Below, in pieces: positions 15,215-22,073 of a DNA stretch of 64,000 nucleotides (positions are counted from its first letter, which is position 1; each line of letters begins with the position of its first letter). The DNA is taken from positions 1 through 64,000 of the forward strand of contig MENK01000029.1 in NCBI GenBank assembly GCA_001768235.1, given 5' to 3'. The position numbers were made by a program, and so were the translations under genes. This stretch comes from Bacteroidetes bacterium GWB2_32_14 (GTDB lineage: Bacteria > Bacteroidota > Bacteroidia > Bacteroidales > UBA12077). The notes beneath the pieces were generated by a model, which saw only the letters and a program-made list of their open reading frames with translations, did not search any database and was not told where the DNA came from.

Positions 15215-15703
15215 TTACTTTTTTAGTTTATTGATAATTGATGTAGTTGAATATCCATCAATAAAATCAATTGTAATAACTTTTCCTCCTTTTGTTTTTA
15301 CAATATCGTAGCCAACAATATCCTCTGCATTATAATCGCTGCCTTTAATAAGTACATCGGGTTGTACTTTTTTAATCAGGTTGTACGGAGTATCTTCATC
15401 GAATAAAACAACGGCATGTATAAAATGCATAGCAGCAAGGGTAATTGCGCGGGCATTTTCATCCTGAACCGGCCTGCTTTTTCCTTTTATTCTTTGAACT
15501 GATTTATCTGTATTTAACCCAATAATTAACACATCGCCATAATTTGCTGCCTGTGCCAAATATTCAATGTGCCCGCGATGAATGATATCGAAGCATCCAT
15601 TTGTAAAAACAATTTTTTGATTTTTAAATCTTAAATAAGCAAGAAAAGCTTCAAGCTTATCGGAATTAATAATCTTAGATTTTAATACATCCAGCTTATC
15701 CAT
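15215..15703 (-). CDS. rfaE2: D-glycero-beta-D-manno-heptose 1-phosphate adenylyltransferase
   Basis: 162-residue nucleotidyltransferase corresponding to the C-terminal half of HldE, making ADP-heptose for the LPS core. FTNGCFDIIHRGHIEYL contains the nucleotidyl-transfer HxGH (His42-Arg-Gly-His45); IGLNTDKSVQRIKG and RPVQDENARA are further family motifs, and the end has VKTKGGKVITIDF. The kinase half (RfaE1) is not in the window, so the enzyme is of the split type. Substrate assignment follows the family; a related cytidylyltransferase role cannot be fully excluded. Confidence 0.88.
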   Translation of the reverse strand: MDKLDVLKSKIINSDKLEAFLAYLRFKNQKIVFTNGCFDIIHRGHIEYLAQAANYGDVLIIGLNTDKSVQRIKGKSRPVQDENARAITLAAMHFIHAVVLFDEDTPYNLIKKVQPDVLIKGSDYNAEDIVGYDIVKTKGGKVITIDFIDGYSTTSIINKLKK

Positions 15704-16758: not shown

Positions 16759-17109
16759 TTATATTAATTTATTTGTGGCAGTATCAGGGAAAATTAATCT
16801 TGGCTTAAAATTTTTAGCTTCTTCAAAATCCATAGAAGCATAAGAAATAATTATAATAACATCGCCAACAGTGGCTTTACGGGCGGCAGGGCCATTTAAA
16901 CATATTTCGCCTGTACCTCTTTTCCCTTTTATAACATATGTTTCAAGTCGCTCGCCATTATTCAGGTTGACTATTTGAACTTTCTCATTTTCAATAATAT
17001 TGGATGCATCCATTAAATCCTGATCGATTGTAATGCTTCCAACATATTGTAAATTTGCTTCTGTAACTGTTACCTTATGTATTTTTGATTTAACTACTTC
17101 GATGTTCAT
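16759..17109 (-). CDS. panD: Aspartate 1-decarboxylase proenzyme
   Basis: 116 residues. Makes beta-alanine from aspartate for pantothenate. It self-cleaves at Gly24-Ser25 (QYVGSITID), producing the pyruvoyl cofactor; Tyr22 and the [10 protein letters not shown] and [17 protein letters not shown] stretches are all present. Follows panC by 28 bases, so both enzymes of the beta-alanine branch are co-transcribed. Confidence 0.97.
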
Positions 17110-17137: not shown

Positions 17138-17983
17138 TTATAAATAAAATCTTACATTATCTATGAGCCTTATATTGCCAACATGAACAGCAATACAACC
17201 CACTTTTTCGCCCTTTTGCGACCAGTTGTTTATTGATTCTAAACTTGTATCATTAACAATTTCAAAATATTCTGCTTTTAAAAAAGGATCTGCATTAATG
17301 GTTTGAATAACCCAGTTTTTGGTTTCTTCAACATTCATTTTTTGTGCAATATTACGAGCTTTAAATAATGTTTTTGAAATTAAAGGAACATGTTCTCTTT
17401 CTTCTTTATTTAAAAGCATATTTCTTGAACTCATCGCTAATCCATCACTCTCTCTTATTATAGGGCAGGAAACTATTTCTACAGGATAACACATTAACTT
17501 AGTTAAATGTTTAATAATTGCAACCTGCTGGAAATCTTTTTCTCCAAAATAGGCCCTGTCAGGAGTCACTATTTCGAACAACTTACTTACAATTAATGCC
17601 ACTCCTCTGAAATGACCCGGCCTGAATTTACCTTCCATCACTTTATCAATGTTTCCAAAATCAAACTGACGGTTATCTTCTTCAGGATACATTTCTTCTT
17701 CAGTTGGAATAAATAAAATATCACATTTTGCTTCCTCGAGTTTCTTAACATCATCGTTTAAAATCCGGGGGTATCTCTGGTAATCTTTTTTATCATTAAA
17801 CTGTGTAGGATTAACAAAGATACTTGCTATAGTAATATCATTATCATTTTTTGAACTTGTTATTAATGAAATATGTCCCTCGTGTAATGCTCCCATTGTC
17901 GGAACAAAACCAATGGTTTTTGAAAAATTTCTTAATTTATTTATTTCGATTTTTAAATCGGCCTTCTTCTCAATTATTTTCAT
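17138..17983 (-). CDS. panC: Pantothenate synthetase
   Basis: 281 residues. Joins pantoate and beta-alanine using ATP. HEGH nucleotide-binding motif at residues 34-37 ([14 protein letters not shown]), [18 protein letters not shown], the FGEKDFQQ motif and the KMSKS-like [10 protein letters not shown] are visible. First gene of the minus-strand operon panC-panD-flippase-rfaE2-radA-ABC, divergent from the glycogen-synthase-like operon. Confidence 0.97.
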
Positions 17984-18092: not shown

Positions 18093-18127
18093 TTTGTTGA
18101 TGATTAACATAAATTTTACTAATTTTG
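18093..18127 (+). promoter_or_regulatory. Promoter for the glgA-like/DUF4270/glmS operon
   Basis: TTTGTTG (18093-18099) followed by TAATTTTG (18120-18127), 20 bases after the second TTG. The ATG is at 18157, giving a leader of roughly 20-25 bases. Confidence 0.55.
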
Positions 18128-18156: not shown

Positions 18157-18960
18157 ATGGAAAATACAAAAGTTTTGTTTATCTCACAAGAAATCACCCC
18201 TTATTTACCAGAAACAGAGATGTCCCTAATAGGACGGAATCTGCCACAAGGAATACAGGAAAGCGGGAAAGAGATAAGAACTTTCATGCCCAAATTCGGA
18301 TGTATTAATGAAAGACGCAACCAATTGCATGAGGTTATACGTCTTTCAGGGATGAATTTAATAATTGATGACACCGATCATCCATTAATTATAAAAGTTG
18401 CATCAATTCAGGCCGCCCGAATGCAAGTTTATTTTATTGATAATGAAGATTATTTTCAAAGGAAATTCACTTTTAAAGATGAAAACGGGAACGATTTTGA
18501 AGATAATGATGAACGATTAATCTTTTTTGCCCGGGGGGTTCTTGAAACTGTTCGCAAATTAAGATGGGCGCCAGATATTATTCATTGTCATGGTTGGTTT
18601 ACAAGTTTAGTTCCTCTTTATATTAAGAAAGCTTATAATGAAGACCCCATATTTGCTAATTCAAAAATTATTTTTTCTGTATATAAAAATGAGTTTAAAA
18701 ACCCTTTAAATAAAGATTTTAGAGATAAGTTATTGTTTGAAAACATTACCAAGTCGGATGTAAAAATATTAAAAGAACCCTCGTTTGTAAATTTAAGCAA
18801 ACTGGCAATAGACATGTCTGATGCAACAATAATTGGAAGCAAAAAAATAAATTCAGATGTACATGAATATATTAAATCTTCAAATAAACCGTTCTTAGAA
18901 TATCAAAACAAAGAAGAATATATTGAAGCATACTCACAACTTTACGATAAAATTCTATAA
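18157..18960 (+). CDS. Half-length glycogen/starch synthase-like protein
   Basis: 267 residues resembling only the N-terminal Rossmann domain of GT5 glycogen synthase: VLFISQEITPYLPETEMS at the start, RTFMPKFGCINERR, and APDIIHCHGWFTSLVPLYIKK near residue 150. The ADP-glucose-binding K-T/V-G-G-L motif is replaced by LPETEMSLIG, and the whole C-terminal GT-B domain that binds the nucleotide is absent although the reading frame ends normally. A glycosyltransferase reaction is therefore unlikely. The same short gene sits beside panC in other Bacteroidota (from memory), so it looks conserved, not broken. First of an operon; five bases before the DUF4270 gene. Confidence 0.8.
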   Translation: MENTKVLFISQEITPYLPETEMSLIGRNLPQGIQESGKEIRTFMPKFGCINERRNQLHEVIRLSGMNLIIDDTDHPLIIKVASIQAARMQVYFIDNEDYFQRKFTFKDENGNDFEDNDERLIFFARGVLETVRKLRWAPDIIHCHGWFTSLVPLYIKKAYNEDPIFANSKIIFSVYKNEFKNPLNKDFRDKLLFENITKSDVKILKEPSFVNLSKLAIDMSDATIIGSKKINSDVHEYIKSSNKPFLEYQNKEEYIEAYSQLYDKIL

Positions 18961-18965
18961 AAAAT

Positions 18966-20234
18966 ATGAACACACAATTTCTTACTTATGCCAAAAAGAA
19001 TATAAATCTGTATTTGGCTTTTATTTCTGTATTAATACTATTCTTCACGTATTCATGTAAAGATGAAGCAAGCATGTTAGGAGCAGATTTACTTCCGGAT
19101 GATGACAGAATGATATTACAATTTGATACAACAATAACTTTCATTAGTTACTTAAACGACGAGGAAGATTTTAGTACAAAAAATTATACTACAGCATATG
19201 TTGGAAATATTAACGACCCATATTTTGGTAGCTTAAATGGTTCTCTTGCTATTCAATATTACCCAAAAGTAATTGGAAATAAAATTGACACCATTGAACC
19301 CGATTCTGCAATTTTATATTTTAGAATTGACAACACTTATGGTGATTTTATAAAAAATGAGAATTTTAATATATATATTTTATCTACATCATTATCGTCT
19401 GACAGTACTTATTTGAATACGACAAGTATTCAGGATTTTTATTATGATGAAGCATTTCCAATAAATACATCTGTTTTTTATTCAGGAGATACATTAATTG
19501 GATTTCCTCTTAGTTCAAATTTTATAAATTATCTTTTACCAAATAATGATTACGTTTATGATACTCTTTCTTTATTTTTAGATTACTATAAAGGAATTTG
19601 TGTAATACCAGAAGAGAATACAGGTTTAGGTTCAATGATTAAGTTATCATTAGAATCAGACGACTCAAAAATTTCATTATTTTATAATGATTCATTAACA
19701 TTTGATTATACATTTAGCCTAGGTGTCAGTTTCTCAAATTATACACATGACAAAACAGGTGCAATTATAAATAATTATTTGGAGAATGATTCAACTGAAG
19801 CAGATACTCTAATGTTTATGCAAGGATTCGGAGGGATGACTTCTAAAATAATTCTATCAGATATAAGCAGATTTAAGAATGCTAAATATTCAATTCTAAC
19901 TGCAGATTTATTCATCCCGGTTTTTAAAGACAATAATTTTGAATTTTTAACACCTCCCGATGAATTATACTTTCTTTATCCTACATCTGATACAACATAT
20001 TACTATATACCGGATGATGATCCTACCTATAGTGATTTTTTTGATGGTTCATATTATGAAGACAATGATTATTATAAATTTAATATTTCAAAGTATTTAA
20101 CAGCTTTATTAGCTGGAGATATTTCAGATTCTCTTTTGAAAGTAAGAATAAGAGAAAATTATTCATATCCAAACCGTGTAATTCTGAAAACCGGCGAAAA
20201 CATTAAATTAAAAGTTACATATACAAAGCATTAA
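18966..20234 (+). CDS. DUF4270 lipoprotein
   Basis: 422 residues. Lipoprotein signal with lipobox Cys31 (FFTYSCKDE), then the DUF4270 start SMLGADLLPDD. The body is rich in Ser, Thr, Tyr and Asp and predicted beta-stranded; no catalytic motif. The domain is of unknown function and found in Bacteroidota, usually between the glycogen-synthase-like gene and glmS or panC. It lies five bases after one and three bases before the other, so it is co-translated with them. Confidence 0.85.
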   Translation: MNTQFLTYAKKNINLYLAFISVLILFFTYSCKDEASMLGADLLPDDDRMILQFDTTITFISYLNDEEDFSTKNYTTAYVGNINDPYFGSLNGSLAIQYYPKVIGNKIDTIEPDSAILYFRIDNTYGDFIKNENFNIYILSTSLSSDSTYLNTTSIQDFYYDEAFPINTSVFYSGDTLIGFPLSSNFINYLLPNNDYVYDTLSLFLDYYKGICVIPEENTGLGSMIKLSLESDDSKISLFYNDSLTFDYTFSLGVSFSNYTHDKTGAIINNYLENDSTEADTLMFMQGFGGMTSKIILSDISRFKNAKYSILTADLFIPVFKDNNFEFLTPPDELYFLYPTSDTTYYYIPDDDPTYSDFFDGSYYEDNDYYKFNISKYLTALLAGDISDSLLKVRIRENYSYPNRVILKTGENIKLKVTYTKH

Positions 20235-20237
20235 TAT

Positions 20238-22073
20238 ATGTGTGGAATAGTTGGATATATTGGAAATAAACAGGCTTATCCCATCTTAATAAATGGGTTA
20301 AAAAGACTTGAATATCGCGGATACGATTCTGCCGGAGTTGCAATATTAAATAAAGAAATAAAAATTTTCAAGAAAAAAGGTAAAGTTTCTGATTTAGATG
20401 ATTTTGTATCTAGCAAGGATGTTAGCGGAACAGTTGGAATCGGTCATACAAGATGGGCAACTCATGGTGAACCCAATGATTTAAATGCTCATCCACATTC
20501 ATCAATGAATAATCATTTTGTATTAATTCATAATGGTATTATTGAGAACTACAGCCGATTAAAAGAAAAACTCGAAGACCGAGGATATATATTTTATTCA
20601 GATACCGATACCGAAGTACTGGCAAATTTAATTGAATACATATATTTAAAAGGGAAAGTTAGTGCTGAAATTGCAGTTCGCCTGGCACTGTCGAAAGTTG
20701 TCGGAGCCTATGGTCTGGCAATTATTTGTAAAGGTGAACCCGATAAACTAATTGCTGCCAGAAAAGGAAGTCCTTTAGTTATTGGTGTTGGAGAAGGCGA
20801 ATATTATATTGCTTCTGATGCAACACCAATAGTTGAACACACAAAAAGTGTGATTTATTTAAATGATGACGATGTTGCCATATTAAGCAAAGATGGTTTA
20901 TCTCTAAAAACAATAAAAAACGATAAGCTTACTCCAAAAATTCATAAGATTAACCTGGATATTGGTGAACTGGAAAAAAATGGTTTCGACCATTTTATGA
21001 TGAAAGAAATTTTTGAACAACCCAGATCAATTTTAGATACTTTCAGAGGACGTGTTTCTTTAGATAAAAAAGAGATTCATCTTGGCGGATTATATTCAGT
21101 AATGCCTAAGCTCATCGAAGCAAAAAGAATAATTATTATTGGATGTGGGACATCGTGGCATGCAGGACTTGTAGGTGAATATTTATTTGAAGAACTTGCC
21201 CGAATTCCTGTAGAAGTTGAGTATGCTTCTGAGTTCAGATACAGAAATCCAATCATTAACGAGGATGATATTGTTATTGCAATAAGCCAGAGTGGTGAAA
21301 CAGCAGATACATTAGCAGCAATAAAGCTTGCAAAACAAGCTGGTGCTACCGTTTTGGGTATTTGCAATGTTGTAGGCTCAAGTATTCCACGCGAAACTCA
21401 TGCCGGTGTTTATACACATGCCGGGCCTGAAATTGGCGTTGCTTCAACAAAAGCATTTACTGCCCAGGTTACTGTTTTAACAATGATGGCAATTGCATTA
21501 GGCTATGAACGGGAAATTATTGATAAACAAAATTTTGACTCCCTGATTAACGAACTCTATAATATTCCTTCTAAAATTGAAAAAATACTTAAAAACAATT
21601 CTCAGTATTTAAAAATTAGCAAACTATTTAAAGACTCTACTAATTTTCTTTACCTGGGAAGAGGATATTTATTCCCCGTAGCTTTAGAAGGAGCATTAAA
21701 GTTAAAAGAGATTTCGTATATACATGCCGAAGGTTATCCTGCAGCAGAAATGAAACATGGGCCTATTGCGCTTATCGATGAAAAAATGCCTGTTGTTGTT
21801 CTTGCAACAAAAGACAAATCGTATGAAAAAATCGTTTCAAATATACAAGAAGTAAAAGCCCGAAAAGGTATTGTTATCGCTATTGTAAGTGAAGGTGATA
21901 CTATAATTAAAAAAATGGCAAACCATGTACTCGAGATTCCTGAAACAAGAGATGAGTTGGCTGCATTATTAACAGTTATTCCATTACAGCTACTTTCATA
22001 TCACATCGCTGTTTTACGAAACTGCAATGTTGATCAACCGAGAAACCTGGCAAAATCAGTAACCGTTGAATAA
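20238..22073 (+). CDS. glmS: Glucosamine-6-phosphate synthase (isomerizing)
   Basis: 611 residues, full length. Converts fructose 6-phosphate and glutamine to glucosamine 6-phosphate for peptidoglycan and lipid A. N-terminal glutaminase with Cys2 nucleophile (MCGIVGYIGN), RWATHGEPN, HNGIIENY; two SIS isomerase domains (IIGCGTSWHAGL, ISQSGETADTLAA, LGRGYLFPVALEGALKLKE) and C-terminal NLAKSVTVE. No glmS ribozyme is visible: the gap to the preceding gene is three bases. Confidence 0.97.
   Translation: MCGIVGYIGNKQAYPILINGLKRLEYRGYDSAGVAILNKEIKIFKKKGKVSDLDDFVSSKDVSGTVGIGHTRWATHGEPNDLNAHPHSSMNNHFVLIHNGIIENYSRLKEKLEDRGYIFYSDTDTEVLANLIEYIYLKGKVSAEIAVRLALSKVVGAYGLAIICKGEPDKLIAARKGSPLVIGVGEGEYYIASDATPIVEHTKSVIYLNDDDVAILSKDGLSLKTIKNDKLTPKIHKINLDIGELEKNGFDHFMMKEIFEQPRSILDTFRGRVSLDKKEIHLGGLYSVMPKLIEAKRIIIIGCGTSWHAGLVGEYLFEELARIPVEVEYASEFRYRNPIINEDDIVIAISQSGETADTLAAIKLAKQAGATVLGICNVVGSSIPRETHAGVYTHAGPEIGVASTKAFTAQVTVLTMMAIALGYEREIIDKQNFDSLINELYNIPSKIEKILKNNSQYLKISKLFKDSTNFLYLGRGYLFPVALEGALKLKEISYIHAEGYPAAEMKHGPIALIDEKMPVVVLATKDKSYEKIVSNIQEVKARKGIVIAIVSEGDTIIKKMANHVLEIPETRDELAALLTVIPLQLLSYHIAVLRNCNVDQPRNLAKSVTVE

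Follow-up and report, generated by a model that had tools for sequence, protein, structure and literature searches.

The analysed window is a stretch of 64,000 nucleotides at the start of contig MENK01000029.1 of Bacteroidetes bacterium GWB2_32_14. An open reading frame on the plus strand (18157..18960) starts with ATG and encodes 267 amino acids without interruption. Its product, termed the half in the following, consists of the N-terminal domain of a GT-B glycosyltransferase of family GT5 and a C-terminal return helix. It is predicted to be catalytically dead and also cytosolic, the latter inferred from seven N-termini judged by eye and a hydropathy sum. Downstream on the same strand are a gene for a DUF4270 surface lipoprotein (bamH, 18966..20234), the sole match found in this genome, and glmS (20238..22073), the third gene of a presumed operon. 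Only 5 bp separate the stop codon of the half from the DUF4270 frame, and 3 bp separate the DUF4270 stop codon from glmS, in keeping with the operon-like row proposed in the preliminary description. The divergent neighbours panC (17138..17983) and panD (16759..17109) are located on the minus strand. A weak promoter-like site upstream of the half (18097..18127, plus strand) has the form TTG-N20-TAnnTTTG of the Bacteroidota-type promoter consensus. The plus strand of the window has ten such matches, two of them being this site, against about seven expected; it is hardly above the chance count and was rejected as a promoter.

The half carries a single Pfam domain, the GT5 N-terminal catalytic domain Glyco_transf_5 (PF08323, residues 5-235, E 1.9e-50, 172.2 bits against a cut-off of 22.7). 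This bears out the preliminary description of an intact gene with only the N-terminal GT-B domain. The nearest NCBIfam models are full-length synthases, covered only in their first half and at scores far under their cut-offs. The best is a 489-aa starch synthase model, matched over 4-233, whose cut-off of 754 bits is far above the 170.8 bits reached; among the GT5 glycogen and starch synthases (GlgA), the Chlorobi-type model NF010698 is nearest. A role of the half as the glycogen synthase of this genome was rejected: another GT5 frame of 511 aa with the motifs KKGGL and SLFEPCG (L002) exists elsewhere in it.

The AlphaFold model of the half has a mean pLDDT of 95.4. Compared with solved structures, it matches 12 GT5 glycogen and starch synthase entries at Z 22.8-28.0, with phosphorylases next. 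It aligns from end to end with complete enzymes: residues 2-267 match 23-513 of the starch synthase 6gne_A (Z 28.0, 250 residues aligned) and residues 4-267 match 1-476 of the 477 residues of 1rzu_A (Z 25.7). The C-terminal helix (codons 255-266, 18919..18954, plus strand) corresponds to the return helix of full-length GT5 proteins. A profile built from the tails of the halves was run against the end sections of 32 full-length sequences. The best match was at most 5 residues from the C-terminus in 27 of them and elsewhere in three, and two gave none. Scores were low, with 11 of the 32 targets above the best of 1600 shuffles; the position of the match was the test. Since the end of the half aligns with the end of the full enzyme and the tail helices match, alignment and predicted fold together show an internal deletion, in which the donor domain was excised from inside the gene and the GT-B return helix was spared.

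Active-site positions were compared in an alignment that covered 38 halves together with 21 full-length relatives and 11 canonical GlgA. The halves were hand-picked to span families and comprise 20 from Bacteroidia and 18 others. Numbering and residue roles follow E. coli GlgA as given in the accessible parts of PMC6210743 and PMC7137382. The half resembles GlgA in the N-terminal GT-B domain, the fold, the return helix and the acceptor position Glu9, which is E in 38/38 halves. Unlike GlgA, it lacks the donor domain and the K-x-G-G-L loop, and the His161 position is mostly lost. The loop, to which Lys15 and Gly18 belong, is placed at codons 18-22 (18208..18222, plus strand) by alignment and reads PETEM in the window protein, so that the altered ADP-glucose loop noticed earlier is real. 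K-x-G-G-L was found in none of the 38 halves, 15 of the 21 full-length relatives and all 11 canonical GlgA. Arg300, Lys305 and Glu377 are part of the C-terminal nucleotide-sugar domain, which is absent from all 38 halves. The window protein has no histidine at position 161; this residue is present in 0/20 Bacteroidia halves and in 5/18 others. Asp137 is kept in 3/20 and 5/18, respectively. This acceptor residue is replaced by glycine in 17/20 Bacteroidia halves, which makes the old glucan binding doubtful. At the acceptor position Tyr165, 17/20 Bacteroidia halves have F. At the acceptor position Tyr95, all 38 halves have F or Y, in a column that is uncertain because 8/11 canonical GlgA have F.

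Compared with canonical GlgA, the halves have extra residues in common with the full-length, mostly bamH-linked relatives. In window numbering, R41 and Q90 are present in 59/59 halves and full-length relatives and in 0/11 canonical GlgA. H58, R62 and W137 are equally constant (59/59), with 3/11, 2/11 and 3/11 in canonical GlgA, respectively. R53 also belongs to this common set, which is absent from most or all canonical GlgA. Because proteins that still have a donor domain share it, the conserved set is probably older than the domain loss.

Altered motifs are not confined to the halves. Glycogen synthase motifs are intact in 14 of the 21 full-length relatives, five sequences of family f26 lack K-x-G-G-L, Arg300 and Lys305, and two others are partly altered. 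Catalytic decay among the GT5 relatives apparently happened more than once. The five f26 proteins are those of L089, L103, L104, L105 and L110, and the family is taken as Chlorobi. L089 scores as a starch synthase despite the lost motif positions (NF010698, 904.5 bits), and nothing else in that genome (G108) scores above the GlgA cut-off.

The half is near-universal in its class and under purifying selection. Among 247 genomes of the phylum that are at least 90% complete, 245 have a match, a count that includes full-length relatives; both misses belong to the Chlorobi-like family f26. All 60 same-class or same-order genomes of this set have a match, and the open frame around the best one measures 258-397 aa; in one of them (G228) the match runs across a stop. 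A second sample of the class, taken at any completeness, gave matches in 58/60 genomes, the two misses being 69% and 72% complete. The half was present in 57/57 near-complete genomes of the class sample, including the genome of the window, seven from the 247-genome sample and the AT-rich 490-kb genome G286. In another set of relatives, 17/19 have it; the two without it are 79% (G005) and 78% (G009) complete, and another genome (G008) has it as a piece at a contig end. Thirteen same-genus pairs (8 same-genus copies) were printed in the dN/dS comparison. The 11 with finite dS gave ratios of 0.045-0.097 at a dS near saturation, and dS was saturated in the other two. A chance frame or a pseudogene is rejected by these ratios and by the conservation, and an assembly truncation because relatives have the same length. 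The accessible part of PMC10394638 lists a 'glycogen synthase' orthogroup of P. gingivalis as under positive selection, which may or may not be the half gene. The preliminary description of a conserved, non-catalytic protein is well supported by this selection and by the lack of both K-x-G-G-L and the donor domain in all 38 halves.

The origin of the half was analysed in a careful tree with canonical GlgA as the root; it comprised 69 sequences and was calculated without the long-branch GlgA L002. L099 was reassigned from full-length to half, its 438-aa frame being due to an N-terminal extension. All 38 halves fall into a single clade (bootstrap/aLRT 100/100), nested together with 12 full-length proteins (100/94), and a quick tree agrees with a single clade of halves. 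The join of the halves and all full-length relatives against canonical GlgA is weakly supported (48/36). The topology shows that the domain was lost once, inside a full-length GT5 lineage. The preliminary description had considered active full-length enzymes at this locus in related genomes as evidence against its reading. Full-length relatives are indeed located upstream of bamH in other families, but these are outside the class and look ancestral; none was seen within the class.

The lipoprotein encoded downstream is a protein different from the half, and it alone is identified by sequence and predicted fold as BamH, which belongs to the core of the machine that assembles the outer membrane in Bacteroidota (BAM). 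It matches DUF4270 (PF14092, E 2e-20) and P. gingivalis BamH (9hjm_G, E 4e-8), and its sequence includes C31-KDEASM. The DUF4270 family profile reached 1e-42 to 7e-45 against BamH from three species. The predicted fold of the window DUF4270 protein (pLDDT 79) aligns with three solved BamH structures at Z 26.6, 26.2 and 21.4; the next entry reached 10.5. Pfam DUF4270 was detected in 29/34 lipoproteins adjoining halves and in 0/3 tested lipoproteins beside full-length relatives. These three do align over the length of the DUF4270 family by hhalign (99.4%, E 9e-22). In outer families, the outer-membrane protein adjoining BamH matches BamG chains at 1e-57 to 1e-68. Both subunits are described in the accessible parts of PMC12578637 and PMC12611786, where bamH is BT_4306, Fjoh_0823 and PGN_1735. 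Judged from locus number and annotation, BT_4307 and fjoh_0824 are presumed orthologues of the half.

The gene neighbourhood changed together with the protein. At 21 full-length loci, a gene for a HAD phosphatase follows directly in 21/21, BamH is encoded within 3 kb downstream in 16/21 and BamG within 5 kb in 9/21; five of these 21 loci had also supplied the sequences for the HAD profile used in the count. At 19 half loci outside the class, the corresponding numbers are 0/19, 17/19 and 17/19, and at 20 Bacteroidia half loci 0/20, 19/20 and 0/20. The latter have glmS in 14/20 and a divergent panC in 16/20. The donor domain and the phosphatase gene are thus missing together from the half loci, and the tie to BamH is kept. 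According to these counts, which compare gene order across families, the pairing with bamH is older than the domain loss. A second set, the named loci, was taken from the best-scoring 80 of 579 confirmed relatives, hence near ones. Where enough DNA was available, BamH is directly downstream in 65/77, panC is divergent in 49/77 and glmS is present within 3.5 kb in 31/61. The possible link to sugar or cell-wall control in the preliminary description is conjectural. BamH is an older and more regular neighbour than glmS. At 10 outer loci, eno is located 2.8-4.3 kb downstream of the half.

An ancestral link to heptose metabolism was considered and rejected as more than a lead. GmhB is the closest model for the HAD phosphatase beside full-length relatives, but the five proteins scanned reached 111.5-145.6 bits, below the model cut-off of 178. 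The panD/panC cluster of the window includes an RfaE domain II at 15215-15703 (heptose-1-phosphate adenylyltransferase, TIGR02199 above cut-off). This domain and the GmhB-like phosphatase of the full-length loci possibly reflect an old ADP-heptose theme.

The persistent pairing raises the question of a dedicated outer-membrane assembly factor: a cytosolic half that controls the synthesis or the pre-export handling of BamH, and of BamG, with glmS as a passenger. The frequency of BamH at full-length and half loci, the proximity of BamG at outer half loci and the direct BamH succession in most named loci are in line with such a role. So is the report that deletion of BamG and BamH was not possible in F. 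johnsoniae (PMC12611786, accessible part). However, the half is retained where BamH is not detected beside it, at 12/77 named loci (from the best 80 of 579 relatives) and at L062, L084 and L099. The half is followed directly by glmS in L112, L134 and L174. Five Chlorobi-like loci have a full-length GT5 and no BamH nearby. Genome G280 encodes the half and BamG and gave no match to BamH. A further case is G286, a single contig of 489,825 bp that is 93% complete and has 21% GC (16 kb read). It retains the half (228 bits), whose frame is open and carries the same motif; the gene follows eno at a distance of 16 bp (L228 6925-9064), and the genome gave no match to BamH or BamG. BamH evolves fast, so the misses in G280 and G286 may be due to divergence. 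Retention in G286 indicates that neither neighbour fixes the function. In addition, bamH can be deleted in B. thetaiotaomicron according to the accessible part of PMC12578637, whose main text does not contain '4307'. A strict BAM factor is weakened by these cases; we consider the role unlikely, at perhaps one chance in a handful.

A catalytically dead GT-B half that is retained for binding or as an adaptor is moderately favoured over these and the following alternatives. What remains of the GT5 enzyme is its acceptor-side (N) domain, the nucleotide-sugar domain having been deleted internally once with the return helix spared. The product would be a cytosolic protein and not an enzyme. Binding would occur through the former cleft side, placed by strand order, with R41, R53, H58, R62, Q90 and W137. 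Judging by the charge of this set, the ligand may be anionic, or the partner may be a protein. The half may then act as a housekeeping sensor or adaptor that is made together with BamH and often GlmS. Such co-production would tie its amount to envelope building, even if its job were independent of BamH. A non-enzymatic housekeeping job is probable. In a more specific version, the half would sense an anionic sugar, nucleotide or cofactor ligand in the cytosol, set envelope building via GlmS and BamH in normal genomes and be needed even where these links are gone. This version is rather doubtful. If true, the half should be essential in most members of the class, and a stripped glycosyltransferase would be a core regulator across a large part of the phylum.

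The basic residues could alternatively serve a newly gained catalysis on a sugar phosphate or nucleotide, and the dense invariant set of R, H, K, E and D would speak for this. Many of these residues are, however, common to full-length relatives, most of them with intact glycogen synthase motifs as described above, and need not serve a new reaction. All 50 entries shown in the fold search were glycogen or starch synthases and phosphorylases. A new enzyme is improbable.

Alg14 pairs with Alg13 to form a split GT-B enzyme, with each half as its own protein. The half is similar in being a GT-B half encoded separately, and it might become active when joined by a C-domain protein that binds the donor: since its acceptor-side domain and return helix are kept, a GT-B partner could dock. 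Unlike in the Alg13/Alg14 case, a stand-alone donor half was not found with PF00534, the one family model used. In six genomes, none of the 76 PF00534 matches is located in an open frame shorter than 341 aa; the single match in G286 has 378 aa. Donor-contact residues of the N domain are gone as well, and a split glycosyltransferase is still less probable than a new enzyme.

A relic that is kept only for its place before bamH, for example coupling transcription or translation, would agree with the tight gaps and with the use of the fjoh_0824 promoter, its number adjoining bamH fjoh_0823, as a tool in the F. johnsoniae BAM study (PMC12611786, accessible part), but is highly improbable given the selection at the protein level, 22 columns invariant over 46 sequences, the retention where bamH is undetected and the fact that BT_4307 was detected at the protein level in B. 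thetaiotaomicron (PMC8941943, accessible part).

The presence of a conserved GlgA-GT5 fragment in Bacteroidetes is already known from a 2024 review in Chem Rev (PMC11046441) and is evidently the same gene. The accessible part of this review gives no anatomy, operon, origin or function of the fragment. For the domain excision, the bamH operon, the co-loss of the phosphatase and the survival in a reduced genome, no account was found in the open-access literature searched. Locus-tag searches of main texts, covering part of the papers, revealed no mutant data for the half. The word 'glycogen' is absent from the main texts of PMC12578637 and PMC12611786. BT_4307 is called a potential or putative glycogen synthase (PMC10797578, PMC8941943) and, in the accessible part of PMC10797578, is read as possible glycogen storage. 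A near-universal protein of the class is thus labelled a glycogen synthase and cited as a sign of glycogen storage, although, as annotated, it lacks the domain for this reaction. The tie to bamH, the single origin by domain loss together with the phosphatase gene and the survival in a half-megabase genome make the putative adaptor a good candidate for an unrecognised core function in a major gut phylum. With a vitamin B12 photoprobe, 16 proteins were captured in both screens; BT_4307 was one of them, with average log2 values of 2.61 and 1.05 (PMC8941943, accessible part). This is a hint only, because the list also holds proteins without a known B12 link. Depletion tools exist for bamH (PMC12611786, accessible part).

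Further observations concern bamG. The only BamG match of this genome is located on contig C20 (L223 5991-8026) and overlaps by 4 nt with the end of a coaX-like gene (type III pantothenate kinase), which was assigned by eye. With bamH beside panC/panD and bamG beside the coaX-like gene, each of the two BAM genes has pantothenate/CoA genes as neighbours. In L071, L072, L074, L076, L079, L081, L083, L088 and L090, bamG is followed by the gene for a TPR protein of some 440 aa, which frequently ends in TTTVR and is possibly an unrecognised envelope factor. Its best match in the genome of the window is a 137-aa frame corresponding to its C-terminal part (C4:59435-59836).
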